NCBI RefSeq assembly: GCF_026151205.1
Contig: NC_087072.1
Location: 9,667,669 to 9,731,668, forward strand
DNA from: Bolinopsis microptera
Lineage: Eukaryota; Ctenophora; Tentaculata; Lobata; Bolinopsidae
Direction: 5' to 3'
Length of the DNA stretch: 64,000 nucleotides
The notes under the pieces are model-generated. The model was given only the letters and a program-made list of their open reading frames with translations, made no database searches and was not told the DNA's origin. This document shows positions 1-43,046 of the stretch, one piece after another. A program made the translations under genes and the position numbers. Positions within the stretch are counted from its first letter, which is position 1. Every line of letters starts with the position of its first letter.

Positions 1-1682
1 TGGTAAGAGGGTTACCTGGGATCTGGGGGGAAGAGTCACGTGATGTAGGGTAATAGTCATTAATTATAAATAACGCATAATCTGTATACGTATATTAATA
101 TATTAATATATTGATTCCAGAAAATATTTCAATGGTTGTGAGAAAATTAAACGCCTGGTTAAGTGAGGAAAGTTTACGGTTGTTGCAATTTCTTTCCAAA
201 ATTTCTGACTCCTGCACTGTTCTCAGGTAAAACGGAATCAAATTGAAATATATTGAACTATTAAGGTGGAATTCAAGGGTCAAATAGTGCGGAGCTGTGT
301 CTGGCTTCTTGGATTCTGCCCTATTTTTATATCGAGATATGATTCGACGACATCTTTAAAAACTCTGCAACTATTACTTCCCAGTCAGTTTTATAACTAA
401 TCAAAATATAAATTTGATTTTATTAAACGATTTACAGTGATCGCAGGGTACTTGAGACACTGTCGCAGGTTGCCATAAATTGTATATTACAGACTAACTG
501 CTAAACTACCCTGCTTATTTGGTGCTGACAAGAATGCCAATAAATCAATCACAAGGTTTTAAAGAGTTTCACTACAAACTATCGTATCAAATATATGTTC
601 GTATCAAATTCTACGTTGAGATATCGTTCATTTAAAATTTAGTAATTATAGGCCTCAATTTCTAGCAAACGACCCCTAAACTATGGTTAAATACATCAAA
701 TAAGAATCTTATAATAATTGAATGGGAGGTTTTTGTCAAGTTACTTCCCATATCATTATCAGTGTTTAAACGATATAATAAAATAATAAACATTTCCTTT
801 GCGAGACAGTAATGACAATTACGATTAACACGGTTGAGACGTCTTAACCACATGAAGTAAAATATTGGGAATGCTAAGCTACACTTCCTGTGGCATTGCA
901 TGTAAAATTAATAAATGGTCTCTGGCTAAAACCCTCTTGCCAGTGAGCCAAGTATTGATTTATAAAGTGCAGTATTTATTATTTAGTGGTGGTAAGATAA
1001 ACGTTATTTACTCGACGATTATAGTTTAAAAGTCAAGATGTATCACTCATTTTTTTGTATTTCAACTGGTTAACTGGTATTCTAGTGTTGCAAAGTATGT
1101 CTGAAAATAGGGCTTCTTCTGCCCCCTAATGATTTTTATCGTAGGATTTCCCCTTTTTTCCTCTTCAAAAAGCTCCTCAAAACCTTGTTTGTCATGTCAC
1201 AACACAAATTGCTGAATAGTTTACACTTACAGTATATAATAACATATTTTAGCAGTAGATAATATCCTATTTAAGCATCCGAAACTTTATTTTATTACCA
1301 ATGAAGTCCAAGTTTTACTTGACTTTGGATCCGTAAATCTTAAATTACGTTACTTTGGATTGACGGTATTGGCAGTGTATAAATACTGCTGTTTATTTAA
1401 TTTCATCTTTCACAGTTGTACAATGTAGAGCAATGGCTTAAAATACGCGACAATATCAAGGCTACCGCTGAGACTAAGACTTGATCCTGTGTGGCGTTTT
1501 TTCTAATAGAAAAGTGCGATAGAAACGCGCAATGGTATCTATTACATCAATCCAGCCGTGCATCATTCCTTATTCAGTCAGTTGGTTGTAGGGCCGAATA
1601 AGGAGCGTTTTTTTCATCAAATTTTCATTGCTTCTAGAGCGGTGGAGGGATGTATGCCTGGTCATTAGTCAAATTGATTTTT

Positions 1683-2123
1683 ATATGAATCAGTCATAAT
1701 GTAACGATCCAATAAATTAATATTCAGAGAAAGACATAACAGCAGTATTCGTGAGAATTTGATGCAGTGATTTAAATCGTGATCAAGTTCATTTTAATAC
1801 GTGACCAATTGACACAGGTACGGGGAAAGCTGGAAATGAAAATACAATAGATTTTATGAAACTAACAGACGAATCAGTCCGACACACATGTTCTTCATAT
1901 TTCGAATGTCTCGTCATAAATTAACATAAATTAGTCGCTGAATAGCGCCTAGACTCCAACTCAACAATTATTCTCCAACGTGTAATTTGTCGCGACTTCA
2001 ACCCTTCTTTTATGGCTTTTGAGCGTCAGCCCAAACCCCAGCTCGCTGCTTTAGTAACGTGCTAGTCTCTGTGATCAAAGTTCAAACTGCACCTATCATA
2101 CCCTCCCTAACTTGGCCGTGTTT
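1683..2123. other. ~440 bp segment present only in the left arm
   Basis: The flanks (ending near 1,682 and resuming near 2,124) are joined directly in the right arm at about 26,362. Short shared T/A-rich sequence lies at the junction. I see no terminal repeats, target duplication or ORF, so it looks like a deletion in the right arm rather than a mobile insertion in the left. Confidence 0.7.
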
Positions 2124-2635
2124 AATGTCGCTATACTCGAAAATTACCACATTTTGTAAAGCTAACTGCTTAAAAAAACCTACTATAAGTTAAGCTGCTT
2201 AAATCGGATTCCAGCTCTATTAATTAAACGACAATTAAGCACAATAACGTAATATAACATGTAAATTGCCGTTTAATAAAGAATAATTACACGAGCTGCA
2301 TACACTATTCTGCCAGTTACGTTTCCTCACCTCTTCCGTCCACAGCTATTGCTAGTAAATTTAGTAAATTTTAGCTAATCGTACTTTTTGTTATAGATCT
2401 GTTCTGACATGTTAGCACAACATTCTTAACCAAATTGATCGAAAATTATGCTTTTTAATTCCATTATTTAGTAGATGTAATTCTAATAGTAAGACCGACG
2501 TCGATAACTTAGTCGTTTTCATTCTATTCTTTGTAGTTTGTTGTGTTCCCAATTGCGGCAAATGCCCTTAGTTTTACCATTTTCTAGTAGTTTTAATTCT
2601 GGTTTACAACCTGCCATACGTCATATCTAGAAAGC

Positions 2636-2680
2636 TAGAAAAGCTAAGGAAGGTTGTAGAAGCTAAGGAAGGTTGTGAAG
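2636..2680. repeat. Short tandem repeat, two copies
   Basis: The unit AGAAGCTAAGGAAGGTTGT or a close variant occurs twice in a row inside the CATIP intron copy. The right-arm counterpart near 25,815-25,855 is slightly diverged. Confidence 0.6.
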
Positions 2681-3488
2681 TGGCCAGTGCAAATTAGTAT
2701 AAAGTACCTGATATCATATATCTCTCTCTCCCGATACCAAGGCGTCAAACAGAGAGCGCTAATTAGAACCAATCGAGAACTGCACAGAGTTAGAATGCTA
2801 GAGAATAGTATGCATTACAGTTCATGTCACTTTCTCAGTACTGCGACCAATAGGCACCAATTGGCACAATATTGACAACCTCCATATCTTTATTCATCTT
2901 TACCTTCATCAAAATTTCCATTAAAGTACAGTGCAAGTGTATTTTGTAATAGCAACACCCATTTAACAATTAAATGACAGTCAGTTGTGATCAGTAAACC
3001 CTGGTCCCTCATCAATAACCCTGTGTCTGTAGATATGAAGCTGAGTGGAAGATAGTAGGAACTAAGGAGTTGACTACAGGTGTTCATGAGTATGCCAGGT
3101 GCTCCTTACCTACCAGCCAGCTCTGATCCTGGCTCCTCCTGCTTTTGTCATTAATTTTACCCGGCGTCATTCTAGCGCAGTGAAATTAGCTCCGTTTTCA
3201 CTGATCTGCAGTATGTAGTATGTAGTTTCAATTTATTACGATTTACGCAGTCCCAACGCCACTTTCGTGTTATTATATCGTCCAGCTGGATTTCGCCGGA
3301 GAAACTATAAACAACTTTAGGCTTTAACACCGTTTGTTACTTTAATTGACGTTCGAGCAGCCCGTTTATTGTGCACATCATTTCTAATGGTCATATTAAC
3401 AGCTCATTCCTCTAGCCCAGTGACCATACCTTTGTGCCCGGGGGTCTTAGTCCCTAATGTAGGATCAGTCCTTGTCCCTGGTGGTCCC

Positions 3489-3580
3489 TAATGATCACGT
3501 CAACATTCCTTAATCAGCTGTCAGGCGTACCCTTAATGATCACGTCAACATTCCTTAATCAGCTGTCAGGCGTACCCTTG
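3489..3580. repeat. 46 bp tandem duplication
   Basis: A unit beginning TGATCACGTCAACATTCC and ending GGCGTACCCTT occurs twice back to back. The same duplication is present, with several differences, in the right arm at about 24,903-24,993, so it predates the arm difference. Intronic, no coding potential. Confidence 0.85.
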
Positions 3581-4243
3581 TTCTTTTTGTTGTGTGTTTG
3601 GACTCACGGGGAGTTGGGTTTTAAACCCAGGCTGGTGAACTGAAATCAACTCAAGATCTGGAGTCTAATATGAGATTCCAATGTTGCAACTTAGATAGTT
3701 AGTGCATTAGAGCACGACCAGGGGGCTTAAATAAAAACGTAACTCAATAACTGGATTCCAGGACCGTGATGCAATTCCTATAATTTCACTGAGTTTCAGC
3801 TTCATTTCCACGGTCGCAATTTTACCTCAGAATTCTTTCACTTTGGAATCGCCGTTTGCTAAAAGTTTTCGGAAATTGCTCGTTTGTACTTTAAATTCCA
3901 CTTTTCGTTTAGCGATAGCGTTTGTTCGTTTAACATCATTGTAAATTTGCTAACCATTACACGGTGTCCGGTTGAATAACAATTTATAATAAACTCCAGA
4001 ATAAAGGTTAGAGTAAAATTCACCATGCGGACGTAAAACACTGGTCAGCGAGGAGCCCAAGTTAGTGCTGACAGCTGCTGACTGATTCGTTGTCTGGTAA
4101 TAATAATAATACTGTGCTCTACAACAACAATAAGTTCAGTATTGCTACTGATAATTATATTAACCCTGGTATCCCAACTTCTCACATGAACAAAAATCGA
4201 TCAGTCGTCTAGTCTAAGTAGGGGGTCCTAGAGTGACACAATT

Positions 4244-4360
4244 TGTCAGTATTAGTATCTTTCAGTAGTTGTCGGTAGTGCTAGTAGTCAGTAATGGTGG
4301 GTATTTGTCAGTATTTGTCAGTATTGGTCAGTAGTGGTCAGTATCTACTTGTAGTGGTCT
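4244..4360. repeat. Degenerate GTCAGTATT microsatellite
   Basis: Variants of GTCAGTA(T/G)T(T/G) are repeated about ten times. The right arm carries the complementary array at about 24,120-24,240. It lies in the CATIP intron. Confidence 0.75.
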
Positions 4361-5423
4361 TAGTGCTGTCTCAAAATCTCAACTGTTAGTTTTGATTAAC
4401 TGTACTACGGAATTCTAGGAATCCCAGACCATTACAATACCATGTGACGTTAACAATTTATCAGATTTCTGTACTTAGTTTCCGAACCCGACTGACCATT
4501 GACAGAAATAAAAGAGGCTGACACAGCCGTCTATTTGGTATGATAATATTTGTTTTACCTTGTTCTACCTTCACTATCTAAATTGTCTGGTCGTGTAAAC
4601 GTACACGTGGTCAATGAAAGATAAACTATCCGCACCAAGCTACGCTTACTTCCTCTCCCGTCATACTACATATAATATTAGGATAATTGTGAGAGTTGGG
4701 TTGTAACTGACACGGCTGGATTATTGAAATTAGTAATTTGTATCCGAAGACAAGCTGAATGTTGACTAAAAAAATAATAATCAAGAAAATTAGGTTTTTG
4801 TGTTGGGTTTTGCGTGACTGGTGAGGGTGTCTTGTAGCTGTGTCTGTGAGGATATAGCCAGGATCACATCTGGTACTGATGATATTCATCTTCTAGACTG
4901 CTTAACTAGGTGGTCACATCATTGATCTTGTTTTAATGAATAATGGATTGTTTAGCTGTACTGTATTTGGTATTCATTTCCATTATTCTGTATTTCTTAG
5001 AATTTGTACTCGGTCATATTACACGCATCACATATGAGAGTTGAATAGTTCACTTTGTAGTTTCTTTGTAATTATGCAGGATTTTCACGGCGGGTAATTT
5101 ATAGTCAACATAATATCTGTACCTACTGCATTAGTGTCTTGAAAAGTTGTTGTTAGATTGTGTTTCTTAATTTAAAATATCTGGTGAAAACAAGATTACA
5201 ACAAAACAAACAAGCAGGACAAACAAAACCAACAAACATTCTTTTTCGTTGACATAATTCGTGTTGCGTTGTGTTCCAAACTCTCAACTTAGGAGTCAGT
5301 AAGCTGAGAGTTAGTTCCCACCAGGAATTGGTATCAACGATTCCATTGCTGTTAGCTGTATAGGTAACCACTCTTTTCCGCTGTATGTGGAACTGTCGAT
5401 TGAGATGGTGAGCTCTCCAACCT

Positions 5424-7164
5424 CCTGAAAACTGTTTTACATTTACACCAGTGAATCGAAGTGAAACGTTAAATGATTTTCATTGGTGGTTGGTTAGTAT
5501 GTAGATACAAATTTTTTCTGTTCCTCAAAGAGGAGCCGTCAGAAAAGGCGTGGGAAAGGCCTGCGCTGTTCATCAGGATCCAGACATGAAATTGAGTTTT
5601 TGTGAGTGTTCAAGTGACGTAGCTCTAATTACAGCAGCCTATTTTCTACACTCGTACTAGAAGAGTGAGGAAAACTAAGAGCAGGTGATAATACGATGAA
5701 ATAATGTGACGACGTTAAAAATATCTACATATCCTAGTAGTATTATGTTTCGTAGGGCACCCGAGGGCGGTGAAGGGTCCCCAAATACGTCTAATATCAC
5801 TTAGTTAAATATAACGATATTTCTCGGAGTAATTTATGGTCCTTTAACATAACCTTTCCGTGCCCAGTATAGCGCACTGCCTGCTGTGTTCTGGTATAAG
5901 TTTTAGTGGTGGTGAATATTATTCTTGATTAAGTCGGCACTTTTCCAGGTATTGTTTGATTGTATTTGAGTCTGTGAACAACAATGCTAGACGCTACTCT
6001 TTGTCATTGTTCTTCAGTTACCATTTCCATGTACTGTATACAATGTTTCCTTTGTATTGACTCTAGACCCTTTGTCCGGATGAGACGGCGAGTTTTTTAT
6101 TTTACAAATATTCGAGATGCGAGGAATTCTTTTGAGAGCTTTTATTTTAGAAGATATTTCAGTTTTTTAATTAGAATCTACGTCATCTCCCTCACGGTAG
6201 TCAAGTCAATTATCTGCGCGGTTTTTCAAAGACGTCTGCAGAAATGAACAGAATCACATGAGATTGTAGCGGTGAACTGTTCGAAACTGTACCGGTAGTG
6301 ACTTTATTATACGCTTTAATAGAGCACGGTTCACTGGATTACAGTCGTTAGCGTGCCTACTTCTACTCACAGCTGTTGCCAAGGGCAATCATTTGCACAG
6401 TGAGGAGGCTTTTTATTTCGTTTTGTGTTTCTCGGTCTTCGGTTTAAGTCATTAAAATCTGTGATTATCAGTTACCTAGTTTTTCAAATTGTTGCCAGCT
6501 TTATTCGGACTTTGAAATCGGAGCTGCAACTTATCTATTACCTGAGTTTCATAAAAATTATAGATTGAATAACGTCATTTTGGTATTTTACAGTTCAGTT
6601 TTCGCTTTTTGGTGTATTTGATTTCGATGTACTCAACTTTACTGATGATGTTTCGATATTTAACATTAATTTTGCTTGAAACGTTGGATAAAAGGAATGC
6701 CGTACTTCTAAGTTTAGTCAAAGGAGTGTGAATAGAAAACAAAAACAGTTCATATGAAAATGTGTGAAAAGTCCAAATAGTAAAATCTTCTGGAGGAGAC
6801 CGAATCTCAATAATATCTGGAAAATACACTAATGTTTAAATTAAAAATAAAAAACAGCACATTAGGATCGTTTATTCATAAGTGTTTCATATCATACATG
6901 TTTAAAACTAAGGTATGAGTAAACTCAAATTCACTGATCGCAGAGAGAGAGTTTACATTTTACAAGTCACTACTTCACTACTATAAAATATAGCTAGTTT
7001 CGTGCACCCAACATAAATCTTATCTGGATCTAAAACAAAATAAACTGTTATCAGCCAATTTAAAGCTCAGTAAACAGTTCAGGAGCTGAATTATTGTCCG
7101 AAATACAGTTCAAGAAAACATCGCTGGACAATTTTAAGAATTTGTGGGTTTTAGAGTCAGGTCC
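5424..7164. other. Non-coding stretch between CATIP exon and Jupiter/HN1 gene (left arm)
   Basis: Collinear with 21,295-23,058 of the right arm. Upstream CATIP exons should lie here or in the right-arm counterpart, but I could not identify one with confidence. No RNA gene or mobile element was recognised. Confidence 0.5.
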
Positions 7165-7503
7165 CTAGCACACATCGTGTGTCTCTTTTCCGAGTGAGAT
7201 AGAGCTGGCACCACCAGGAGGTGAAGTTACCAGGATATTCCTCGTCTTCCTCTTAGGAGTGTCCACTACACGGTCCTCAGACTTTACCACCACCACCTCC
7301 CTGACCTTCCTGGCGGGTCTCGCAACATCCTGTCCGTACCCACCAAACAGATCTAGACTAACTCTGCCGCCAGGTGGAGCCAGCACTCTGAGGGATTGGG
7401 AGGTGTTGTTCTCTTCACTGTTACCACCGCCGGGGGGAGCTAGCACTTTGGTGAAGGACACTGGCGAGTCTGAGTAGTATCCAGTGCGGTCTAGTTGAGA
7501 CAT
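7165..7503 (-). CDS. Jupiter/HN1 (JPT) family microtubule-associated protein, intact copy
   Basis: A 112-residue single-exon frame starts at an ATG at 7,503. It contains three PPGG blocks (about residues 23-26, 43-46 and 95-98), two within VLAPPGG and the last followed by SSISLG, the hallmark of the JPT1/JPT2 (HN1, Jupiter) family. These are small, disordered, basic proteins linked to microtubules and signalling. A basic patch (PKRKTR, about residue 83) lies before the third block. Vertebrate members are about 150-190 residues, so this one is short. It lies 485 bp from the end of a rhodopsin-like receptor frame on the same strand. The inverted copy at 20,962 is riddled with one-base indels, so this is the usable reading. 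Family assignment is strong; orthology to JPT1 versus JPT2 cannot be given. Confidence 0.8.
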   Translation of the reverse strand: MSQLDRTGYYSDSPVSFTKVLAPPGGGNSEENNTSQSLRVLAPPGGRVSLDLFGGYGQDVARPARKVREVVVVKSEDRVVDTPKRKTRNILVTSPPGGASSISLGKETHDVC

Positions 7504-7988
7504 GGTTTCAGGAGTTGTTAACGGTAAAGTGAGATGGAAACAGATTGTTCAAATAGCGAGAACTGATGGGTCAGGGGTTGGTGAAATGTCTTTTATAGTC
7601 ATCGTGAGTATCACAGATAGCAGGGTGATATTGATAAGATGTGATTCAACCATCTCGCATGTCAGACTGTCTTATCAGTAGTAACATCTGAAACCACTAA
7701 CTCAGATGCTAAGAAACGAGAGTATCTTTAGAGATAAACCCACGTCTTTTGTACTGAACACAGTTTTAATGTCACCTCATCAAGATGAAGTCTCTCTAAT
7801 TACACAAGACTTTCTAGATTGAGTAAAACAGCCATTTACGGGACTATTAGAGCCTCCTCCTACGCAAAACTGCCGCACTTCTCAACAATCCAATACCTCT
7901 GAACCCCTAAATCTACACAAATACACCACCGGCGTTAACGCCGCGTTAAAACCCCACTTTATACACAAACACAAACACAGTCAGATAG

Positions 7989-8863
7989 TTACTGAAGATG
8001 GATCACCAACCCACGGATAACATGACACTGTAAACACACGGGGAGGTTCAGTACCAGGATACCTGCCGGATGATGGACTATGGTAGTTGAGGTGAACCTC
8101 CTCTCCTCACCCCTCCCTCTATCTGCATACTCTGCTGAGAGTGAGGGTTTAGTGAGCTCCTGGACTGACAGCACACAACTCATCATGATGGGGAGGAAGG
8201 GGAGGAGGTTGAGGAGGATGAAGACGGAGGTGAAGATGAGGAGGTAGTGGTGAGGGGGTATGTCCATGCCAGATCACGAGATCTAGAGTAGGTGTAGGTG
8301 TTCATGGTGCAGTAAGGGAGGGCGGCGATGAGGAGGAGGAGGGTGGTGTAGAGTAAGATAGGGGTCATGGTGTAACGTTTCCTGCCTGGAGAGAAGGGGG
8401 AGAGAAGGGAGATTGTGCGACTGATACTGAGAAACTGCCAACAGGAACACACTGAGTCTAGCAGATATAAAGAAGAAGACCCCCCACAGTTAACATATAT
8501 ACTGGGTAGGAGAGGACTAGAGGGGCCCGGTGTAGGAAGTGGGACAAACCCGGCCAGAACATCAGGAACACCGATACCAGGTCAACTGAGACAATGCTGA
8601 GGTAGAGGATGTTGGAGGTGGTTCTCTTCCGAGAGGTGAAGTAGCCCAGAGCTAGGATGTTTCCTAGAGTTCCAAGAGTGAAGCACGTGATTAGAATCAA
8701 CCCAATACCCACATCAACATCATTGCTGGTCGGGGGTGTGGTGGAACTGGTGGTGGGAAGTGTAGAAACTCATTGAGTAGTCAGGCCAGATGAAGATGGT
8801 ATACTGATATGGTATAACTTGATCTTTTGTGGAAGGTGGACGAAAGTGAACGGCTTGAGACAT
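7989..8863 (-). CDS. Rhodopsin-like GPCR, frameshifted copy (left arm)
   Basis: A class A seven-helix receptor reads from an ATG at 8,863 through several frames. After a hydrophilic N-terminus comes helix 1 with the GN motif (TLGNILALGY), helix 2 with LSIVSVDL, helix 3 ending in SISRTISLL in place of DRY, helix 4 (ILLYTTLLLLIAALPY) and helix 5 (YLLIFTSVFILLNLLPFLP). A helix 6-like piece (ILVLNLPVCLQC) follows, then a stop. At least three frame changes are needed, one of them in a G-run near 8,476-8,500. Helix 7 was not found before the stop at 7,989, so the gene is truncated or has a further exon. The right-arm copy at 19,490 is also broken but at different points, so the real gene may be intact. 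Ligand unknown. Confidence 0.65.
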
Positions 8864-11280
8864 TATTTGATGATTGTGTATTGTTTGAAGTGAAACAATA
8901 CATAGCAGGAAATTGATATATGATCATAAGTAAGGCCAAGAATAAGGTTTCTTGTCAATTACCCCCAATACTTATCTTTTTATTTAGCAGGGGATTACAT
9001 GTTTGTCGCTGCGAAGAGTCATTCATATTCGAACTTGGATACAAGAGTATATAATGTATAATATTGTGTATTTGCATAGTGGACGGGCGTTCAGCTTAAA
9101 TATTCATCATACGTTATGTCGTCAATAAAATAATTATTATAATTATACCAATATTATGGTCATCAATTCTTGTTTGTCATCATGGACAAAAGCTTAAATG
9201 TAACGAAAACTATACTATAATTAATGAAAGCTGTATACTGATTTACTAGTATTCAGTGCCGTCACCAACTCAATACATAGAGCTTTGAATTATTCTGTTA
9301 TGACGTTAACGAATACCATAAAATGAATCAATTCATATAATTTATAAAATAAATATACCCAAGAGTTTAATTGTCAACAGACGTATTCCAGAAGATTATA
9401 ATGTACAGAAGGGAACTACACGGTACCTACAGTACCCAGTACCTGGTACCATAGTTCGCACTCTGGTATGACAATATGTGCGCGACCAGTAACCATCATT
9501 GATCAGTTTTCTAGTTTATATTGGATGTTGAACTGATGTGCATCTCTCCCAAATTCCTCAACCGTTTTGTTGTCATTTGTTTCATTTCCACAAGACATTC
9601 GATTGCGAGACTCGAGGCATATTTTTGGAAATTAACAAAAGTATTACATGTTAAATTAGTGGCACTTACTGCACTTTTTGGAACAATGGATTTTGCTAAT
9701 TACAGTCAGCAATTTTACTAAAAAACAAAGCACCCAAATTGACAGTGACGATCATGTTTGTCTGATGCTGCTGCCAGAAAGATGAGGCCATAAATCCCTG
9801 CCTGAATGGACATAATACCGTGATCTTATTAGTGAAACGATTTACTGGAGTATGTAGGTAATATCTATCCTTCTTTACTGAGCTCGAACTTTCACGCTTG
9901 TTGCACACTCGGTCATATCATACGATAATTTGCTGCTTTGATCTTGGGTTTGTGTTGTTCATTTTCAGATAAACAAAGTTCTGTTGCCGCAAAAATGAAT
10001 AAACGTTGTGAATGGCCTCCAAAGTTTGTCACTTGATTTCATGTAATTACACTTGAGCTATTTACTAGGCTTTCTAACTCTGTAGCTGTATTGTGACCTT
10101 GAGTTTTTAAAAATACCATGATAGACAAAATGATCCTTAAGGTAGAAACCTGGGTTTGCCTTGAAATACATTCCCACAGCCAGACAGCATATCCTACCAC
10201 GCGTTACAAGAGTACACAAGACACGCTATACTGCCGTGTGATTATCTTTATCATACATGTCATGTACATGTAGTGTATTATGATTGTGTTGTCTGGTTCT
10301 GGTGATAATCGCCTTGCAATTAATTCTCTTGGTATTATTACTGACCGGAGCGCGTGAGTTAAATGGAGTAGAGGGGCACTTGTGATGACCTTATTTGGAT
10401 GTGTTAACGTTTCTTTTGAAGACGAATAGTAGTAGTAAATGAAATCGTTTTATATCCTTGCTTCACAGGCCTTTCTCATGATAACCAAATACTGTTGCTA
10501 CGATTACACGTGTATCATTATGATTATTATATCTTCTGTACTATTTGAACAAGGTTTCAAATCAAATTGAATTGACTATAAAAATGATGAGTTAGCTGTA
10601 TGGCTTATGCTAATTACTTAATTAAGTCCAAAGTGTAGCACGTTGTGGTATTTAATTTTTCTTCTTCTTCTTTATTATGGTCACCCGTTTCTTGCTTGTC
10701 TATTTCTTGGCAATTCTGTAGAGGTCACATTGGCTCAATACCTCAGATTTAACTTTAACCGTGTGACTTATTAATGTTAAGGCTTTGCTTTTATTCCAGA
10801 ACTTTTCTGAAAGGTTCTCTTCAGACGAACAGTGTTATTTATTGCATTTAAATTATAAAAATAGGTGTTAATTTTTGTCGAATTTTTGACGCGTTGATAA
10901 CTACTAAACAGCTGCGGCTGGCTGATTCTCTATCTCTCACGAAATTGACGTTTGCTTTACATCATTATATGGTAGCTTACCAGAATTCCCCCTTGATTCA
11001 CTTCCAACACGTCTTAAACGGAAGCTAATAATTCTATATTTGACGCAATTGGTATCTGGTCATGGTCCACCACTAAACTTTACCCATACTAAATATCTTA
11101 TAAATTTTTGTAGTTTATTTTATTTACCTTTATATCTTACAACCTTTATATCTTATAACATCTCCCAAACTTGTAGTATCCTATAATTTCTTTTATCTTG
11201 ATAATCTTCCAATCTGTAGTATCCTATAACTTCGCTTTTTTCTTATAAACATCTCCAAACTTGTAGTATGCGAATGTTTG
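8864..11280. other. Intergenic stretch of the left arm
   Basis: AT-rich DNA collinear with about 17,010-19,489. No exon, RNA gene or transposon was recognised. Near 11,130-11,275 a unit of about 50-57 bp containing CTTGTAGTATCCTATAA is repeated about three times, just upstream of the first recognisable class C receptor exon; the same array is at 17,010-17,190. Confidence 0.5.
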
Positions 11281-14136: not shown

Positions 14137-14142
14137 TACACA
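14098..14142. other. Central loop of the giant inverted repeat
   Basis: About 40-45 bases between the arms have no inverted partner. Read forward they continue the receptor frame (INFLQVIEKPVKF). Outside them, GCGGGGAT at 14,071 pairs with 14,160, which puts the axis near 14,115-14,120. Confidence 0.75.
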
Positions 14143-17003: not shown

Positions 17004-19489
17004 TCTACAAGATTGGGTGATGTTATAAGATATAAAAGAAGTTTTATAGGATAATTCATGTTGGGAAAGATTATAAGATATAAAGAAATTATAGGATACT
17101 ACAAGTTTGGGAGATGTTATAAGATATAAAGGTTGTAAGATATAAAGGTTAAATAAGATATAAACTACAATAAATGTTATAAGATATTTTAGTATGGGGT
17201 ATAGTTAGTGGTGGACCATGACCAGATACCAATTGCGTCAAATATAGAATTATTAGCTTCCGTTTTAAGAAGTGTTGGAAGTGATCAAGGGGGGAATTTG
17301 GTAAGCTACCTATATGATGTAAAGCAAACGTCAATTTCGTGAGAGATAGAGAATCAGCCATCCCGCAGCTTGGTTTTAGTAGTTATCAAACGCGTCAATA
17401 AATCGACAAAATTAACACCTATTTTATAATTTAAATGCCAATTAATAACACTGTAGTCTGAAGTGATCCTTTCAGAAAAGTTCTGGAATAAAAGCAAAAG
17501 CTCTTTAAACATTAATAAGTCACACGGTTAAAGTTTAATCTGAGGTATTGAGCATATGTGACTCTACAGAAGATACCAAGAAATTGCTAGGCCGAAACGG
17601 GTGACCATTATATAAGAAGAAGAAGAAAATAAATTATCAACAACGTGCTACACTTTGGACTTAATTAAGTAATTAGCATAAAGCATACGTAACTCATCTT
17701 TTTTTATAGTCAATTCAATTTGAGTTGAAACCTTGTTCAAATTTACAGGAGATATTATAATCATAATGATACCGTGTATTCGTCACCCTTCTCTCTACCC
17801 CTGTACTCTCTAAGTCGCAACAGTATTACGGTTATCATGAGAAAGGCCTGTGACGCAAAGGATTATAAAACGATTTCAGTTACTACTACTATTCGGTATT
17901 CAAAAGAAACGTTTAACATCCAAATAAGGTCACACAAGTGCCCCTATACTCATTACTCACGCGCTCCGGTCCAGGTAATATAGCTAGTGAGTTAATTGCA
18001 GGCGATATCTACTGAACCAGACAGACTACAAGCCTATAATACACTACTATGTACATGACATGTATGATAATGATATATCACACGGCAGTATAGCGTGTCT
18101 TGTGTACTCTTGTAACGCGTGGTAGGATATGCTGTCTGGCTGTGGGAATGTTTTTCAAAGGCAAACACAGGTTTCTACCTTAAGGATCATTTAGCTATAA
18201 TGGTATTTTTAACTCAATGGTCCACAATACAGCTATGGTGTAAATGCCTTTAGTAAATCAGCTCATGTTGTTATTTCAATGAAATCAAGGACACTTTGAG
18301 GCCATTCTCTACGTTATTCATTTTGCGTGCAGAAAGAACTTTGTTTATCTGAAAATGAACAACACAAACCCAAGATCAAAGCAGCAAATTATCGTATGAT
18401 ATGACCGGAGTGTGCAACAGCGTGAAAGTTCGAGCTCAGTTAAAAGCAGGTTGATAGTACCTACATATACAGTAATCGTTTCACTAATAGATCACGGTTA
18501 TTATGTCCTTTCAGGCAGGGATTTATGGCCTCATCTTTCTTGGCAGCAGATCAGACAAACATGATCGTCTCTGTCAATTTGGGTTCTTTGTTTTTTTAGT
18601 AAAATTGGGCGACAGTAATTAGCAAAATCCATTGTTCCAAAGTGCAGTTGTGCCCACTAATTTAAACATGTAAATACTTTTGTTAATTCCAAAAATATGC
18701 CTCTAGTCTCGCCAATCGAATGTCTGTGGAAATGAAACAAATGACAAATCAAGAAACGGTTGAGGGAAAATTTTGGAGGAGAGATGGCACAATCAGTTCA
18801 ACCAGTCAATATAAACTAGGTAAACTGTCAATGATGGTTAACTGGTCGCGCACATATTGTCATACTCAGAGTGCAGCACTATGGGTACCAGGTACTGGGT
18901 ACTGTAGGTACCGTGTAGTTCCCTTCTGTACATTATAATCTTCTGGAATACGTCTGTTGGATCAATTAAAACTCTTGGGTATATTTTATTATATAAAATT
19001 ATATGGATTTGATTCATTGTATGGTTTCGTTAACGTCATATCTGATAATGCCATTGGCTCTATTGGATTGAGTTGGTGACGTCTATGGAATACTTGTAAA
19101 ATCTGTATACTGCCTTTCATTAATTATAGTGAGTGTCGTAACATTTATGCTTTGTCTTGATGTCATAACAAGTATTGATGACCATAAATTTGGGTTATAA
19201 TTATAATAATTTTTTATTGACGACATAACGTATGATGAATATTTAAGCTGTCGCCCTGTCCACTATGCTATACACAATATTAACATTATAATACTCTTGT
19301 ATCGCAAGTCGAATATGAATGACCTCTTCGCAGCTGACAAACATGTAATCTGCTAAATAAAAAGATAAGTATTGGGGGTAATTGACAAGAAAACTTATTC
19401 TTGGCCTTACTTATGATCAGTATATCCAATTGCCTGGCTATGTAGTGTTTTCATTCAAACAATACTCAATCACATAATAATGTCTCAAG
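17004..19489. other. Intergenic stretch of the right arm
   Basis: Inverted copy of 8,864-11,280, including the ~50 bp tandem units at 17,010-17,190. Nothing else recognised. Confidence 0.5.
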
Positions 19490-20343
19490 CCGTTCACTTT
19501 CGTCCACCTTCCACAAAAGATCAAGTTATACCATATCAGTATAACCATCTTCATCTGCCTGACTCCTCAATGAGTTTACACTTCCCACCACCAGTTCCAC
19601 CTTCAGCCCCCTGTACGCAATGATGTGATGTGGGTATTGGGTGATTCTAAATCACGCTGCTTCATCTTGGAACTCTAGGAAACATCCTTGCTCTGGGCTA
19701 CTTCACCTCTCGGAAGAGAAACCACCTCCAACTTCCTCTTCCTCAGCATTGTCACAGTGGACCTGGTATCGGTGTTCCTGATTTCTGGCCGGGTTTGTCC
19801 CACTTCCTACACCGGGCCCCTCTAGTCCTCTCCTACCCTGTTATATGTAACTTGTGGGGGGTCTTCTTCTTTATATCTGCTAGACTCAGTGTGTTCCTGG
19901 TGGCAGTTCTCAGTATCAGTCGCACAATCTCCCTTTCTCTCCTTCTCCAGGCGAGGAAACGTTACACATGACCCTATTTACTCTACACCACCCTCCTCCT
20001 CCTCATCGCCTCCCTCCCTTACTGGCACCATGATACCTACACCTACTCTAGATCTCTGGTGTTCTGTGGCTGGGACATACCTCCTCACCACTACCTCCTC
20101 ATCTTCACCTCCGTCTTCATCCTCCTCAAACCTCTCCACCTTCTCCCCATCATGTGTAGTTGTGTGCTGTCAGTCCGGGAGCTCATAACCCTCACTCTCA
20201 GCAGAGTATGCAGATAGAGGAGGGGGAGGAGTGGAGGTTCCTAACTAACATGTACATCATCACGGCAGTGGTATCTGGTACTGAACCTACCCCGTGGTGG
20301 TTTACAGTGTCATGTTTTAGTGGGGTTGGTGGACATCTTCAGT

Positions 20344-20345
<2 letters not shown>
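19490..20345 (+). pseudogene. Rhodopsin-like GPCR, frameshifted copy (right arm)
   Basis: Inverted partner of the receptor at 7,989-8,863. The ATG and first codons (MSQAVHFRPP) are kept, and the donor-free frame then breaks repeatedly. Pieces include SVSVAQSP in a wrong frame near 19,910 and an EEWRFLTNMYIITAVVSG stretch at ~20,225 that may be the better reading of helix 6. The copy stops at the poly-A block. Damage sites differ from those of the left copy, which argues for reading errors over decay of the gene. Confidence 0.6.
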
Positions 20346-20479
<134 letters not shown>

Positions 20480-20961
20480 TCTGACTGTGTTTTGTGTTTG
20501 TGTGATAATGTGGGTTTAACGCGGCCGTTAACCCGGTTGTGTATTTGTGTAGATTTAGGGGGTTCAGGAGGTATGTGGGATTGTTGAGAAGTGGCGGCAG
20601 TTTGCGGAGGAGGAGGGCTCTAGGGGTCCTGTATTAATGGTGTTACTCTAGATCTAGAAAGCTGGTGTAATTAGAGAGACTTCATCTTGATGATGGTGAA
20701 TTAAAACTGTGTTCAGTACAAAAGACGTGGGTTTATCTCTAGATACTCTCGTTTCTTAGATCTGAGTTTGTGTTTCAGATGTTACTACTGATATGGACAG
20801 TATGAAATGCGAGATGTTGAATCATCTTTCAATATCACCTGCTATCTGTGATACTCACGATGAGTATAAAAAAGACATTTCACCAACCCCTGTCCCTCAG
20901 TTCTCGCTATTTGAAAACAATTGTTTCATCTCACTTTACCGTTAACAACATCCTGGAAACC

Positions 20962-21294
20962 ATGTCTCAACTAGACCGAACGGGATATACTCAGACTCGC
21001 AGTGTCCTTCACCAAAAGTGCTAGTCCCCTGGCGGTGTAACAGTGAAGAGAACAAACTCCCAATCCCTCAGATGCTGGCTCCCACCTCGGCGGCAGAGTT
21101 AGTCTAGATCTGGTTGGTGGGTACGGAAGGATGTTGCGAGACCCGCCAGGAAGGTCAGGGGAGGGGGTGTAGGTAAATGTCTGAGGACGTGTGGGGACAC
21201 TCTAGAGGAAGGACGGAGAATATACTTGGTAATCTTCACCTTGGTGGTGCAGATCTATCTCACTCGGATGAAGAGATACTACGATGTGTGCTGG
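20962..21294 (+). pseudogene. Jupiter/HN1 family gene, damaged inverted copy
   Basis: Matches the intact frame at 7,165-7,503 (read inversely) from the ATG at 20,962, but contains about ten one-base gains and losses and has lost the stop codon. The indel-rich pattern looks more like raw-read error than evolutionary decay. Confidence 0.75.
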
Positions 21295-23058
21295 GACCTG
21301 ATCTAAAAACCCACAAATTCTTAAAAATTGTCAGCGATGTTTTCTTGAACGTATTTCGGACATAATTCAGCTCCTGAATCTGTTTTACTGAGCCTTTTAA
21401 ATGCTGTAACAGTTTATTTTGTTTTAGATCCAGATAAGTTTATGTTGGGTGCACGAAAACTAGCTTTATTTTAATTTAGTAGGGAAGTAGTTGGACTTGT
21501 AAAATGTAAACTCTCTCTCTGCGATCAGTGAATTTGAGTTACATCTATACCTTTGTTTTAAACATTATGATATGAAACACTTATGGAATAAACGTATCCT
21601 ATTGTGCTGTTTTTTATTTTAGTTTTATCATTAGTGTATTTTCAGATATTATTGAGATTCGGTCTACTCCAGAAGATTTTACTGATTTGATTTTTCACAC
21701 ATTTGCATATGAACTGTTTGTTTTCTTTCACCGTCTTGACTAAAACTTAGAAGTACGGCATTCTTTTATCCAACGTTTCAAGCAAAATAATTAGGTTATA
21801 TGCGAAAACATATCAATTAAAGTTGAGTACATCGAAATTCAAATACAACTTAAAAGCGAAAACTGGAACTGTAAAATACCAAAATGATCGGTTATTCAAT
21901 CTATAATTTAATGAAACTCAGGTAATAAGATAAGTGTGCAGCTCCGATTTCAAAGTCAGGAAATAAAGCTGGGCAACTATTTGAAAAACTAGGTAACTGA
22001 AAATCACAGATTTTAATGAACTTTAAAACCGAAGGACCGTAGAAACACAAAACGAAATAAAAGCCTCCTCACTGCAAACATTGCCCTTGGCAACAGCTGT
22101 GAGTAGAAAGTAGGGCACGCTAACGACTCGTAATCAGTGAAACCGTGTGCTCTATCAAAGCGTATAATAAAAGTCACTACCGGTTACAGTTCGACCAGTG
22201 CACGATACAATCTCATGTGATTACTGTTTCATTTCTGCAGACGTTCTTTGAAAAATAAACCGCGCAGAAACTTGACTTGACTACGTGGAGGTGATGACGT
22301 AGTATCTAATAAAAAAACTGAAATATCTTCTACAAATAAAGTCTCCAAAAGAAATCCTCGCCATCTGAATATTAGTAAAATAAAAATCGGCCCGTTCTCA
22401 TCCTGACAAAGGGTCTAGAGTCAATACAAGGCAAATTGTATACAGTACATGGAAATGGTACTGGAAGAACAATGAAAAGAGTAGCGTCTAGCTTTGTTGT
22501 TCACAGACTCAAATATATTCAAACAATTACCTGGAAATATGCGACCTTCATCACGAGAATAATATTACACGCGCCACTAAAACTTATACCAGGACACAGA
22601 GGGCAGTGCGACTATACTGGGCAGGAAAGGTTATGTTAATGACCATAAAATTACTCGCGAGGGAATATCGGTTATTTTAATAGAGTGTGTATTATGACGT
22701 TTTTGGGGACCTTCAACGCCTCTGGGTGCCCTAGCAAACTTTATACTATTAGGATATGTAGACTATTTTAACGTCGTCACATTATTTCATGGTTATTATC
22801 ACCTGCCATTAGTTTTCTCACTCTTCAGTACGATTGTAGAAAATAGGCTGCTGTAATTAGAGCTACGTCACTTGAACACTCACATAAACTCAATTGCAAT
22901 GTTGGAATGATGAACAGCGCAGGCCTTTCCACCGCTTTTCTGACGGCTCCTCTTTGAAGGAACAGAAAAAATTGTATTCTACATACTAACCAACTCAACC
23001 TTGAAAATCATTTAACGTTTCTCTTCGTTTCACTGGTGTAAATGTAAAACTGTTTCAG

Positions 23059-26000
23059 GAGGTTGGAGAGCTCACCATCTCAATCGACAGTTCCACATAC
23101 AGCGGAAAAGAGTGTTACCTAGTACAAGCTAACAGCAATGGAATAGTTGATACCATTCCTGTGGGAACTAACATCACAGCTTACGTGACTCCTAAGTTGG
23201 AGAGTTTGGAACACACGCAACACGAATATGTCAACGTAAGTATGTTTGTTGGTTGTTTGTCTGTTGTTTGTTTTGTGGTCATCTTGTTTCACCAGAGATT
23301 TTAAATTAAAGAACCAAATTAACACAAACTTTTCCAAGTCATAATGCAGAGGTACAGATATTATGTTGACTAAAATTGCCCGCCTTGAATATGCCCTGCA
23401 TAAGTTACAAAGGAGAACTACAAAGTGAACTATTCAACTCTCTTATGTGATGCGTGTAATATGACCGAGTACAAATTCTAAGAAATACAGAATAATGGAA
23501 ATGAATACCAAATACAGTACAGCTAAACAAATCCAGTATTCATTAAAAAACAAAGATCAATGTTGTGACAACCTGTTAAGCTGTCTAGAAGATGAATATA
23601 TCCAGTACCAGTTGGTGATCTGGCTATATCCTCACAGACACAGCCTCACAGACACATCACACAGCCTCACAGACACAACCAACAAAAACCTAATTTTCTG
23701 ATTATATTTTTGTAGTCAACATTCAGACTTGTCTTCGGATACAAATTACTAATTTCAATAAATCCAGCCGTGTCAGTTACAAACCAACTTCACAATTTCC
23801 TAATAATTATATGTAGTATGACGGGAGAGGAAGTAAGCGTTCTTGGTGCGGATGTTTATCTTTCATTGACACGTGTTCGTTTACCAAGACCAAGACAATT
23901 TAGATAGTGGAATGTAGGAACAAGGTAAAACAAATATTATCATACCAAATAGAGGCTGTGTCAGCCTCTTTTATTTCTGTCAATGGGTCAGTCGGGTTCG
24001 GAATACTAGTACAGAAATCTGGATTAATTGTTATCGTCACTGTATGGTAATGGGCTGGGATTCCTAGAATTCGTATACAGTTAATCAAACTAACAGTTGA
24101 GATTTTGAGACAGCACTAAGACCATTACACGTAGATACTGACCACTACTGACCAATATGACAAATTACTGACAAATACCCACATTACTGATACTTGCACT
24201 ACCGACAACTACTGAAAGATACGAATACTGACAAATTGTGTCACTCTAGACCCATACTCTAGACTAGTCGAATGATCGATTTTTGTTCATGATGAGAAGT
24301 TGGGATACCCATGGTTATATAATTATCATTAGCAATACTGAACTTATTGTTGTTGTATAGCACTTGTATTATTATTATTTACCAGACAACGAATCAGTCA
24401 GCAGCTTGTCTGCACTAACTTGGGCTCCTCGCTGACCTGTGTTTACGTCCGCGTGGGTGAATTTTACTTAACCTTTATTTCTGGAGTTTATTATAAATTG
24501 TTATTCACCGGACACGTGTAATGTTTAGCAAATTCACAAATGATGTTAATAACGAACAAACGCTATCGCTAACGAAAAGTGAATTTAAGTACAAACGAGC
24601 AATTTCCGAAAACTTTTAGCAAACGGCGATTCCAAAGTGAAAAAGGAATTCTGAGGTAAATTTGCGACCGTGGAATGAAGCTGAAACTCGTGAAATTATA
24701 GGAATTTGCATCTCGGTCCTGGAATCCAGTTAATTGAGTTACGTTTTTATTTAAGCCCCTGTCGTGCTCTAATGCACGAACTATCTAAGTTGCAACATTG
24801 GAATCTCATATTAGACTCCAGATCTTGAGTTAGATTTCAGTTCACCAGCCTGGTTTTAAAACCCAACTCCCCGTGAGTCCAAACACACAACTAAAAAGGA
24901 ACAGGGTACGCCTGACAGCTGATTAAGAATGTGACGTGATCATTAGGGTTACGCCTGAACAGCTGATTAAGAATGTTGAGTGATCAATTAGGGACCACCA
25001 GGGAAAGGATGATCCTACATTAGGGACTTAGACCCGGCACAAAGGTATGGTCACTGGGTAAGAGGATTGAGCTGTTAAATGACCGATTAGAAAATGATTC
25101 AGTGCACAATAACGGCTGCTCGAAGTAAATTAAAGTAACACAAACGGTGTTAAAGCCTAAAGTTTGTTCATAGTTTCTCCGGCGATAATCCAGCTGGACG
25201 ATATAATAACACGAATGTGCGTTGGACTGGTAACATCGTAATAAATTGAAACTCAGACGACTTACTGAGATCAGTGAAAACGGAGCTAATTTCACAGCGC
25301 TAGAATGACGACGGGTTAAAATTAATGACAAAAAGCAGGAGGAGCAGGATCAGAGATGGCTGGTAGGTAAGGATGCACTGGCATACTCAATGTACACCTG
25401 TAGTTCAACTCCTTAGTTCCTACTATCTTCCACTCAGCTTTCATATCTACAGACACAGGGTTATTGATGTTGGGGCCATGGGTTAATGGTCACAACTGAT
25501 GTATCTCTTTTAATTGTTAAATGGGTATGTTGCTATTACAAAATACTTGCACTGTACTTTAATGGAAATTTTGTGAAGGGTAAAGATGGCATAAATAAAG
25601 ATATGGAGGTTGTTCATATTGTGCCAATGGTGCCTATTGGTCGCTGGTTCTGAGAAAGTGACATGACACTGTAATGATTACTATTCTCTAGCTTTCTAAT
25701 CTGTGCAGATTTCTCGATTGGTTCTATTAGCGCTCTCTGTTTTGACGCCTGGTATCGGGAGAGAGAGATATATGATATCAGGTACTTTATACTAATTTGC
25801 ACTGGCCACTTCACAACTTCCTTAGCGTCTACAACCTTCCTTAGCTTTTCTAGCTTTCTAATATGACGTATGGCAGGTTGTAACCAGATTAAAACTACTA
25901 GAAAATGGTTTAAAAATAAGGGCATTTGCCGCAATGGGAACACAACAAAGCTTCAAAGAATAGAATGAAAACGATAAGTTATCGACGTCGGGTCTTCCTT

Positions 26001-29000
26001 TAGAATTACTTCTACTAAATAATGGAATTTAAAAAGCATAATTTTCGATCAATTTGGTTATGAATGTTGTGTAACATGTCAGAACAGATCTATATCAAAA
26101 AGTACGATTAGCTAAAATTTACTAAATTTACTTAGCAATAGCTGTGGACGGGAAGAGGTGGAGGAAAAGTAACTGGGCAGATTAGTGTATGCTGCTCGTG
26201 TATTATTCTGTTTTAACGGCAATTTACATGTTATATCGTTTTGTCTTACTTGTCGTTTTTAATTATAGAGATGGAATCGATTTTAAGCAAGCTTCATCTT
26301 ATAGTTGTTTTTTTAAGCAGTTAGCCTTTACAAAATGTGGTAATTTTCGTGTTATAGCGAATTAAAAATCATTTGACTAATGACCAGGCAATACATCCCG
26401 CCACCGCTCTAGAAGCAATGAAATTTGATGAAAAAAACGCTCCTTATTCGGCCCTACAACCAACTGACTGAATAAGGAATGATGCAGCAGGCTGGATTGA
26501 TGTAATAGATACCATGGCGCGTTTCTATCGCACTGTTTCTAGTAGAAAAAACGCGCACACTGGATCAAGTCTTAGTCTCAGGCGGTAGCCGTGAGATTTT
26601 ATTGTCGACGGATTTGAAGCCATTTGACTCTACATTGTAAAACGTGGAAAAGATGAAAATGAAATATAACAGCAGTATTTATACACTGCCAATACCGTCA
26701 ATCCAAAGTAAAGTAATATTAATATTTCGGATTCCAAAGTTAAGTAAAACTTGGACTTCATTGGTAATAAAATAAAGTTTCGGATGTTAAAATAGGATAT
26801 TATCTACTGCTAAAAATGTATGATTATATACTGTAAGTGTAAACTATTCAGCAATTTTGTTGTGACATGACAACAAGTTTTGGGGGAGCTTTTTAAAGAG
26901 GAAAAAAGGGGAAATCCTACGATATAAATCATTAGGGGGGGCAGAGGAAGCCCTATTTTCTGACATACTTTGCAACACTTAAATAGAATACCAGTTAACC
27001 AGTTGAAATACAAAAAATGAGTGATACATCTTGACTTTTAAACTATAATCGTCGAGTAAATAACGTTTATCTTACCACCACTAAATACTGCACTTTATAA
27101 ATCAATACGTGGCTCACTGGCAAGAAGGTTTTAGCCAGAGACCATTTATTAATTTTAAATGCAATGCCACACGAAGTGTAGCTTAGCATTCCCAATATTT
27201 TACTTCATGTGGTTAAGATGTCTCAACCGTGTTAATCGTAATTGTCATTACTGTCTCGCAAGGGAAATGTTTATTATTTTATTATATCGTTTGAACGCGG
27301 ATGATGATATGGGAAGTAACTTGACAAAAACCTCTCATTCAATTATTATAAGATTCTTATTTGATGTATTTACCCACAGTTTAGGGGTCGTTTGCTAGAA
27401 ATTGAGGCCTATAATTACTAAATTTTAAATGAACGATTAACGTAGAATTTGATACGAACATATATTTGATACGATAGTTTGTAGTGAAACCCTTTAAAAC
27501 CTTGTGATTGATTTATTGGCATTCTTGTCAGCACCAAATAAGCAGGCTAGTTTAGCAGTTAGTCTGTAATATTCAATTTATGGCAACCTGCGACAGTGTC
27601 TCAAGTACCCTGCGATCACTGTAAATCGTTTAATAAAACCAAATTTATATTTTGATTAGTTATAAAACTGACTGGGAAGTAATAGTTGCAGAGTTTTTAA
27701 AGATGTCGTCGAATCATATGTCGATATAAAAATAGGGCAGAAGCCAGAAACAGCTCCGCACTATTTGACCCTTGAATTCCACCTTAATAGTTCAATATAT
27801 TTCAATTTGATTCTGTTTTAGCTGAGAACAGTGCAGGAGTCAGAAATTTTGTAAAGAAATTGCAACAACCGTAAACTTTCCTCACTTAAAGTTAACCAGG
27901 CGTTTAATTTTCTCACAACCATTGAAATATTTTCTGGAATCAATATATTAATATATTAATATACGTATACAGATTATGTGTTATTTATAATTAATGACTA
28001 TTACCCTACATCACGTAACTCTTCCCCCCAGATCCCAGGTAACCCTCTAACCAAGAGGTCCGTGTTGAGCCAGACTGATGACGGATACCAGCTGGTTCTC
28101 ACCACGACGGAGGGTGGCACTGAAACGGTCACCACCGAGGAGTTTACTAAAGACGAGATGGCAAGGTTTATATCTGAAGGTTAGTCTGACTGTTCAATCT
28201 TTCGACTCTCGCCTTCCAAGAGTATACGTTGTTACATTCAACCATGGTCATTGGTCCATCGTAACAACTTGGGTTCACTGATGCCGTCTTGAGATATGTG
28301 ACACCGCGTCGATCACAGCGCCGCCACTCAATCAAGGCTTGTTTTTTCAAATAATCGGCGGTTTAACACTGACCGCCCAATAGCAAGTTTTTATATTTAC
28401 AATGAACTTCCCTCCCAGGTGCTAACTTGGTGCTACAGAGGTTGAGTATTATACTCGGAGTACATAGTCGTATGAGCTTTAACGTCTTCTCCACGGATAA
28501 TGCCCTTGCTAATGTCAGCTACGTGAGTAATCTTCTTTAAACTACCACACAATTATTTTCAAGTTTAGATTAACCGCTGCGTAACTCATTTTGCATGATA
28601 AATACACAGATTTTAAAACTAACATCAACAATATCCTTGTCAATGGCAACTTAATATTGATAAATCAATACGAAAGTTTTTGCCGAACTATCAATACAAT
28701 CGACTATAATAACAGCTGATACTACCATGAACAGAGGTAGAAATGAACCTCTAATTGACTTCTAATTGACCTGTCGTCGCGGCTAGTATGATTAACAAGA
28801 TTGGTTTACTGTTACCACTGCACTAGTAGACCATTGTTCCCAGAAGTCTACGAGACCTCTTTTTGGGCCTTCTCCAGCACCCTTACAATTAGAGTGAATT
28901 AGACGTCAGATTGTTGCCTGAAGTAATAACGCAACAATGTTGGTGAACATGCATAAACATAGACTATACAGTGTGCTATTGTTAATGTACCTGTGAGTGA

Positions 29001-31841: not shown

Positions 31842-32519
31842 ATTGTGGATTAGCCAATCAACCATGTACATATTACTAATATTACTTACTCTATTTGAAA
31901 CATCAATCATAATTTCTACCATATTTGAAACAACTATTTGATCAACGAGTAAACATTATCTGCCTTCATCTCCTCTGCTTTTCTTGATTATCTGAACACG
32001 AATTGCATGAAGATAAGCTACTAGGACCCTACTGAATTTAAAGTTCTGTTTCGCTCTTTGAATTAGTCATAAATTTTGATGTGAGTTGAACTTTCGTACA
32101 AGCTTAGAATCAATGATATGATCAGTTTTTTGTAACTTCATGTATGATTACAGATACCAAATGTGTAATTGTTAATGTAAGATAATTTTGTAATTAAATA
32201 TAGTAGATGAAGCCGCCTGTCATTTAAAAAACATGAATATTCTGTTGCATTTGTTAATAAATTTGGATTTTCATACGCTGTAAATATAACATGAACATTT
32301 CTCTTATCAGTTATTCTTATGAACCTCCTGAAGTATAATGTTTGTAAATATTATGAGAGTGTGGGTATTTATTCAGGTAAACACTTCTTCTCTTCTAGTT
32401 CTATTTCTTTATTGTAATAACAGCTATTTTCTTTTTGTCGCACAATCTTATCATATAAAGCGGGAGGAGGCTTTGAGGTCCTATAAAATTTGAAATCAAT
32501 TGAAGTGCACTAATCTTGT
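31842..32519 (+). other. CATIP 3' untranslated region and flank
   Basis: AT-rich, no ORF. An AATAAA at 32,256-32,261 is the likely polyadenylation signal, about 415 bp after the stop. Confidence 0.5.
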
Positions 32520-35937: not shown

Positions 35938-36235
35938 ATACTGATATCTGGAAAATTACCCGGGTTTGGAAGAGACAAGGAAAAGGAAAAAAGGGAAGTT
36001 GGGAGGGCAAATTTGGCGTCAACGCCATCTTCGGGCTCAAATTATTTTTTTATATATAGTGTTGAAAGTAAAAAAAGTTTTAAAAATTAAAAAGTTTTAA
36101 ACTTTCAACATACTATATAAAAATAATTGGCCTGAAAAATGGGGTTTACGCCCAAAAATTTCCCTTACTCCCAACTTCCCCTTTTTTCCTTTTCCTTTTC
36201 TCTTCCCAACCGGAATATCCGATACAGAGATCTTT
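35938..36235. repeat. Foldback element with ~120 bp arms
   Basis: The left arm (GGTTTGGAAGAGACAAGG ... TATATATAGTGTTGAAAG) matches the inverse of the right arm (CTTTCAACATACTATATA ... CCTTTTCTCTTCCCAACC) around a ~40-base AT-rich loop. Differences are mostly run lengths. It could be a MITE or hairpin. Confidence 0.8.
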
Positions 36236-42800: not shown

Positions 42801-43034
42801 AATTAACTTTGACCAGACTCCAGCAGTCCTACATCAAAGATCATCACTGTATTCTGATTTCCATAGGTAGAGCTGTGAGCTCAATAATTATAATTTCAAG
42901 ATTTGAATCCAATTTTGCAAGAGGTTATGGTACCATTGCTTGCGCCAATGTACCTTGTTGTGAGTGCACTATTTTTAGATTTAATGATAATGTGATTGTG
43001 CTAAAAAATTCAAGTTGATTTTTAATTCATTTTC

Positions 43035-43042
43035 CTCTACAG
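43035..43042 (+). promoter_or_regulatory. Splice-acceptor-like site directly before K2P start codon
   Basis: A pyrimidine-rich stretch ending CTCTACAG lies four bases upstream of the ATG at 43,047. It suggests that the mRNA 5' end is spliced on, either from an upstream exon in the rough region or from a spliced leader. Confidence 0.4.
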
Positions 43043-43046
43043 CAAA

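Follow-up and report, generated by a model that had tools for sequence, protein, structure and literature searches.

A giant palindrome lies at the left end of a 64,000-base stretch of the ctenophore Bolinopsis microptera (contig NC_087072.1), and its structure and origin are the subject of the present analysis. This stretch, hereafter the window, corresponds to C1:9667669-9731668 (C1 coordinates are contig positions) and was examined together with neighbouring stretches as a context of 201 kb, in an assembly totalling 264,652,675 bases in 232 contigs. Self-BLASTN of the window gives a single collinear inverted repeat over 1-28053 in four pieces, namely 1-1683 against 28053-26363 (93.7% identity), 2121-7990 against 26366-20476 (89.9%), 7989-10501 against 20345-17814 (89.2%) and 10500-17783, which pairs with itself (87.0%); positions 1-14105 mirror 14131-28053. 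This repeat far exceeds chance, and the giant inverted repeat placed at 1..28051 by the initial annotation is present. Its arms are not near-perfect, however, as had been claimed, since the pieces are only 87-94% identical and carry many indels, and the supposed loop of 40-45 bases shrinks to an unpaired centre of ~25-30.

Three copies of one locus and their genes

BLASTN across the 201-kb context reveals three collinear copies in the order forward-inverted-forward, here called F1, R and F2. The palindrome is the end of R together with the start of F2, and its left arm extends 13.8 kb past the left edge of the window. The features are as follows (window positions unless prefixed C1; basis in brackets):

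C1:~9605680-9653742, forward: copy F1 (context BLASTN)
C1:9653835-9681773, inverted: copy R (context BLASTN)
C1:9681799-9725238, forward: copy F2 (context BLASTN)
1..14105, minus: left arm, formed by the right end of inverted copy R (self-BLASTN, context BLASTN, error signature)
~1-4430, minus: clean part of the left arm (window-by-window error signature)
~4430-14105, minus: raw-read-type error in the left arm (window-by-window error signature)
13614..14730, no strand: class C G protein-coupled receptor (GPCR) gene fragment, two copies facing each other across the fold (NCD3G match, left copy)
14106..14130, no strand: unpaired fold centre, ~25-30 bases (copy alignments, adapter comparison)
14131..57570, plus: copy F2, whose first 13.9 kb (to 28053) form the right arm (BLASTN)
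14131..26830 (approximate), plus: F2 part with raw-read-type error, i.e. one-base indels and transversions (error signature)
20344..20477, plus: A run of 134 bases, 132 A and 2 T (arm comparison)
34130..42430 (approximate), plus: further raw-read-type error in F2 against F1 (pair scan)
43026..44030, plus: 335-residue ion-channel open reading frame (ORF) with two Ion_trans_2 stretches, E 9.3e-18, intact in F2 and F1, shattered in R
46530..50430 (approximate), plus: further raw-read-type error in F2 against F1 (pair scan)
50846..52600, plus: 585-residue ORF without a Pfam match, whole in F2 and F1 but shattered in R

Homology of F2 to R continues, with large gaps, to ~54079 (C1:9721747). R lacks ~12 kb present in both F1 and F2, in three blocks at F1 9631.3-9638.6, 9640.6-9642.8 and 9643.3-9645.7 (such coordinates are in kb along C1, in the F1 copy). 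Genome searches, in which match counts are lower bounds, agree with this layout: 1001 arm bases used as query found at least three places, which are F1, R and F2, and the central 1281 bases found at least the palindrome on both strands and F1 on both strands. The right flank (57500-59500) found itself, a 71-base end common to F1 and dispersed matches of 34-149 bases; among the 40 of 769 candidates scored, it occurs only once at high identity.

The gene at the fold is a fragment in both arms. NCD3G is matched in the left-arm ORF at E 1.3e-7 and 31.8 bits, under the curated cut-off of 38.9, and the right-arm receptor ORF at the fold has no Pfam match. Both receptor fragments stop at the start of the membrane part, and the gene is continued only in F1, where 7tm_3 is matched at 9605002-9605514 (above cut-off) and again at 9605453-9605770 (below cut-off), each with one internal stop. 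Further along, the two intact ORFs are nearly the same in F1 and F2 (99.3% identity for the 585-residue and 99.7% for the 335-residue ORF), and 13 of their 17 substitutions are synonymous. The remains of both in R, found by tblastn, are frame-shifted at 32-37% identity, plus a 22-residue stretch at 64%.

R and F2 depart from F1 within ~ten bases of C1:9605675, with the ~25-30 unmatched bases in between (when the two are aligned to each other, R stops at C1:9681773 and F2 starts at 9681799). A run of 36 C lies in F1 at C1:9605578-9605613, 62 bases beyond this fold point. Other long C or G runs are found at window 31063-31088 (26 bases), 50152-50192 (~41) and 60936-60986 (~51), and such runs may be break sites of this assembly. 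In the F1 stretch C1:9605560-9605760, searched for a snap-back seed, the longest exact inverted repeat found was 6 bases. Three sequencing adapters were compared by alignment with the fold and the F1-R join, and against 300 shuffles each five of the six scores were ordinary. The sixth, the Oxford Nanopore Technologies (ONT) rapid adapter at the fold, reached a score equalled by only 3 of 300 shuffles and, being one among six tests, was not credited.

At the other junction, F1 matches F2 up to 9653742 (F2 9725238), save for a 65-base insertion in F1. Then follow ~95 bases resembling a dispersed repeat at 9643973-9644064, and inverted R begins at 9653835 (equivalent to F1 9650121). Directly after the clean end of F1, and from its first bases, R is only 88-89% identical to F1 and F2, with an error signature throughout that part.

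The copies also differ in structure. F1 carries a 3.2-kb insertion at C1:9610250-9613440 with a 10-base target duplication (AAATACTTTT), which R and F2 lack, and a 655-base insertion at C1:9626165-9626820 with a 10-base target duplication (GTTTCTTATC) is shared by F1 and F2 and leaves an empty site in R. The latter has inverted ends by eye, and its F2 copy lies at window 31000-31700. Both insertions are polymorphic and transposon-like. In addition, ~433 bases in F1 and R are missing from F2, with no clear target duplication. With only two states at each variant site, a pair of haplotypes and mosaic contigs would be enough to explain the variation.

Several further sequences accompany the copies. 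C-/T-rich, strongly strand-skewed tandem arrays with poorly matched copies occupy window 37337-39553 (F1 ~C1:9632789-9635305), including a unit of ~318 bases at 38789-39454; to the right of the window, arrays lie at C1:9762212-9765401 (copy spacing ~33 bases) and 9746961-9750556, and the latter has relatives at 9769778-9770961. Adjoining the right end of F2, at window 58083-58979 on the minus strand, is a 299-codon class A GPCR ORF in a single exon (7tm_1, E 1.8e-15). Another class A receptor, proposed by eye at 8183-8769, was not confirmed by Pfam, whose only match there is Cation_ATPase_C at E 0.0023, below cut-off. The 7tm_3 domain has at least 31 genome matches, many within single long ORFs, and one intact single-exon class C GPCR ORF of 814 codons lies 7 kb right of the window at C1:9738660-9741101 (minus strand); it is distantly paralogous (28-32% identity) to the broken receptor gene of the fold. 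The window holds no Rfam match at gathering thresholds and no tRNA found by ARAGORN.

Sequencing error and true divergence among the copies

Uncorrected long reads and ordinary divergence leave different traces, and the balance of one-base indels and transversions against transitions, taken copy by copy, separates raw-read fill from true divergence at multi-copy loci without recourse to the reads. The clearest contrast is at F1 9646.7-9650.1. Here R and F2 differ by 83 substitutions (9 transitions, 74 transversions) and 244 indel events, 220 of them one-base, over 3485 columns, whereas F1 and F2 differ by 19 substitutions (12 transitions, 7 transversions) and 8 indel events over 3372 columns. 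Judged on this pattern, the former differences read as uncorrected long-read error and the latter as ordinary polymorphism.

The signature switches on and off along each copy. All copy pairs were scanned in 600-column steps, together with odd-one-out column counts, and the resulting boundaries are approximate. F1 is noisy to ~9629 and clean at ~9629-9653.7 (kb along C1); R is noisy at 9653.8-9662, clean at ~9662.6-9672 and noisy on to the fold. In F2 noise extends from the fold to ~9694.5 and returns at 9701.8-9710.1 and 9714.2-9718.1, with clean sequence between and after these tracts. Opposite these two later noisy tracts of F2 (window 34130..42430 and 46530..50430), F1 is clean when judged against other repeat copies. 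In the noisy tracts deletions outnumber insertions (153 against 91 events in one case), which is not the classical profile of raw PacBio reads, and this excess was not used to name the machine.

Clean tracts behave quite differently, with 0.6, 0.6, 1.4 and 1.3% substitutions in four comparisons. F1 and F2 differ there as alleles do, with 0.6% substitutions (19 transitions and 12 transversions over two stretches), a normal ratio between the two classes and intact frames. In contrast, the arms of the palindrome differ by 6-13% with many indels, and their divergence grows towards the fold; in a global alignment, whose aligner turns some indels into mismatches, mismatches rise from 2-3% at the outer ends to up to ~20% near the fold. 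Isolated substitutions, defined by five identical columns on either side, were therefore counted separately. Over F1 9605.6-9618.6, transitions and transversions number 1 and 12 private to F1, 4 and 21 private to R, and 4 and 35 private to F2, i.e. 9 and 68 for the three copies summed, compared with 14 and 9 in the clean R tract 9622-9628. Since private substitutions near the fold are mostly transversions, there is almost no true divergence there, and both arms carry the kind of error expected of single reads. The arm differences had been taken to favour a real or haplotypic origin. That argument does not hold in the inner 10-13 kb of either arm, which show the uncorrected long-read signature. 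It stands in the outer part (~1-1100 against ~26950-28053, together with R beyond this to the left): here R and F2 are ~1.3-1.4% apart, transitions outnumber transversions, and a transposon-like insertion also separates them.

The number of clean copies was also counted place by place, clean being at most 3% private differences in 500-column windows with remainders under 300 columns left out. This gave 54 windows, of which six were dropped for a long gap in one copy. Among the remaining 48, no copy was clean in 12, one in 20, two in 16 and all three in none. These counts match two alleles' worth of short reads split among three assembled copies, although they are not proof of it.

As controls, 11 other repeat pairs in the same context were scored alike. 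Six of the 11 show 0 or 1 one-base indels, with transitions to transversions from 4/6 to 16/11; one control pair, 9592457-9593243 against F1 9640554-9641342, is 91.1% identical with 12/12 and no one-base indel. Four pairs have 3, 7, 10 and 18 one-base indels, and one, 9602254-9603254 against 9741636-9742649 (92.2% identical), has 47 together with 6/24. This last pair suggests that the noise of F1 probably extends left to at least 9602.3.

Two tests of frame damage were set aside. Taking the majority of the three copies lengthened the best ORF in one block (256 residues, against 207 in F1, 132 in R and 120 in F2) and shortened it in the class C receptor block (142, against 204, 160 and 196); the test is weak and was not relied on. 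The intact receptor paralog, used as query, matched F1 once (28% identity), R once (32%) and F2 nowhere, and is too distant for frameshifts to be counted.

Origin of the palindrome

On the strength of these sequence patterns, the palindrome is very probably an assembly artefact, in which case the mirror-image sequence is an error to repair and not a biological discovery. Of the three candidates put forward by the initial annotation (a true fold-back duplication, haplotypes joined tail to tail and a fold-back read), a mixture of the second and third is favoured. The locus would be present once per haploid genome, and allelic contigs would have been left in one scaffold, with F1 forward, a piece of R reversed and F2 as the main contig; F1 and F2 are presumably alleles, as their clean differences suggest. 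Gaps between these contigs would then have been filled with uncorrected long reads, and the fill at about window 4430-26830 would hold the fold. This fill is most likely one read folded back, or otherwise two raw reads meeting at a hard place near the C run. A single folded molecule is preferred, given that the two arms share their turning point and that the 3.2-kb insertion is missing from each. Short-read polishing would finally have cleaned whichever copy drew reads, at most two per place, and left the others raw.

The published pipeline for Bolinopsis microptera comprised wtdbg2, HiRise, TGS-GapCloser, Purge Haplotigs and Illumina reads with Pilon, applied to a diploid animal of ~254 Mb per haploid genome, and placed 97.23% of bases in 13 chromosome-scale scaffolds (PMC10232365). 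The same paper lists PacBio continuous long read (CLR) and HiFi libraries for three species jointly (PMC10232365), from which we infer that Bolinopsis had CLR data. Segments of raw long reads inserted by TGS-GapCloser still require error correction, according to its description (PMC7476103). This pipeline would yield the mixture of clean and raw sequence seen here and was probably the cause of the artefact.

A real local triplication in the same forward-inverted-forward order, formed by template switching and with copies too alike for proper polishing, is unlikely. It would amount to a 40-50-kb amplification in a comb jelly that arose beside the 36-C run of the class C receptor gene, too recently for the inner arms to show much difference beyond sequencing error. 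The order F1-R-F2 matches that in duplication-triplication/inverted-duplication (DUP-TRP/INV-DUP) rearrangements, and structure private to single copies (the 3.2-kb insertion of F1, the 655-base insertion missing in R and the 433 bases missing in F2) would suit it as well. On the other hand, the fold sits within a tract of raw error and each end of R carries noise, true divergence is almost absent from the inner arms when the outer R-F2 stretch shows 1.3-1.4%, the ORFs intact in F1 and F2 are broken in R by error rather than by natural decay, and three clean copies are never seen together in the 48 scored windows. A real inverted duplication on one chromosome only, with F1 the undamaged allele and R-F2 the rearranged allele placed in sequence by the assembler, is highly improbable. 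R and F2 do jointly lack the 3.2-kb insertion and share an end point inside the receptor gene that F1 extends; these same facts were counted for the artefact. A mistaken tandem placement of alleles is required in any case, the right part of F2 and F1 resemble plain alleles, and the clean R tract is 1.3-1.4% from F2 and lacks the 655-base insertion common to F2 and F1.

Several observations nevertheless weigh against the artefact reading. No adapter was recognised at the fold, and HiFi data were nearly free of fold-back reads in one survey (PMC12870357). The A run is ~131 bases longer in the F2 arm than in R and F1, and one folded molecule should share these bases in both arms unless the run is an error; the excess is probably a read error, of unusual length. 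The fill would be explained equally well by two raw reads that met near the C run. The ~12 kb of blocks missing from R are not explicable by read error that acts one base at a time, and the ~95-base piece of nearby sequence at the F1-R join would also suit a real template switch. Moreover, three real copies would explain the variant sites equally well, and the lack of windows with three clean copies is expected too if such copies competed for polishing reads.

If the palindrome is an artefact as favoured, ~71.5 kb of the scaffold would be surplus (C1:9653743-9725238, with F1 as the kept copy), and genes there would be counted two to three times or resemble pseudogenes. Furthermore, a false inverted duplication could pass into comparative work as biology.

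Comparison with known systems

Large palindromes that bear genes, for example on the human Y, combine very similar arms with spacers far longer than the one here. The present case is like them in its long inverted arms, but differs in their 87-94% identity, in a spacer of 25-30 bases and in its genes, as the receptor fragment is broken in both arms and two ORFs are shattered in R further left. Human DUP-TRP/INV-DUP rearrangements have a forward-inverted-forward order and a short nearby piece at a join; the order is found here and such a piece lies at one join, but both joins are laden with error.

Haplotigs left unpurged in a scaffold are a closer likeness, with clean tracts of F1, F2 and R at 0.6-1.4% substitutions and transposon-like presence and absence, although here three pieces stand in a row with one reversed. 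Raw long-read gap fill, as described in PMC7476103, similarly leaves uncorrected stretches between clean contigs, partly cleaned by later short-read polishing; the fill borders here are deduced from the error signature.

In a fold-back long-read artefact, as defined in PMC12870357, the second part of the read aligns with the opposite strand of the same region, no more than 200 bases away; 0.5% of unamplified PacBio reads were flagged as palindromes and ascribed to false positives and to missed or missing adapters in PMC6218980. The present case differs in standing in a finished scaffold and not in a read. Its presumed raw tract is also asymmetric (~9.7 kb against 12.7 kb), with the fold at 14118, ~43% along 4430-26830; fold-back reads are expected to fold within 10% of the read midpoint, and these tract borders are deduced and not read ends. 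The 3.2-kb insertion is missing from both arms, yet the 131 extra A are in the F2 arm only. R and F2 are nevertheless like such reads in several ways: the sequence resumes on the opposite strand of one and the same locus after fewer than 200 bases, the junction spans only a few dozen of them, an adapter is not needed and the error is at the level of single reads.

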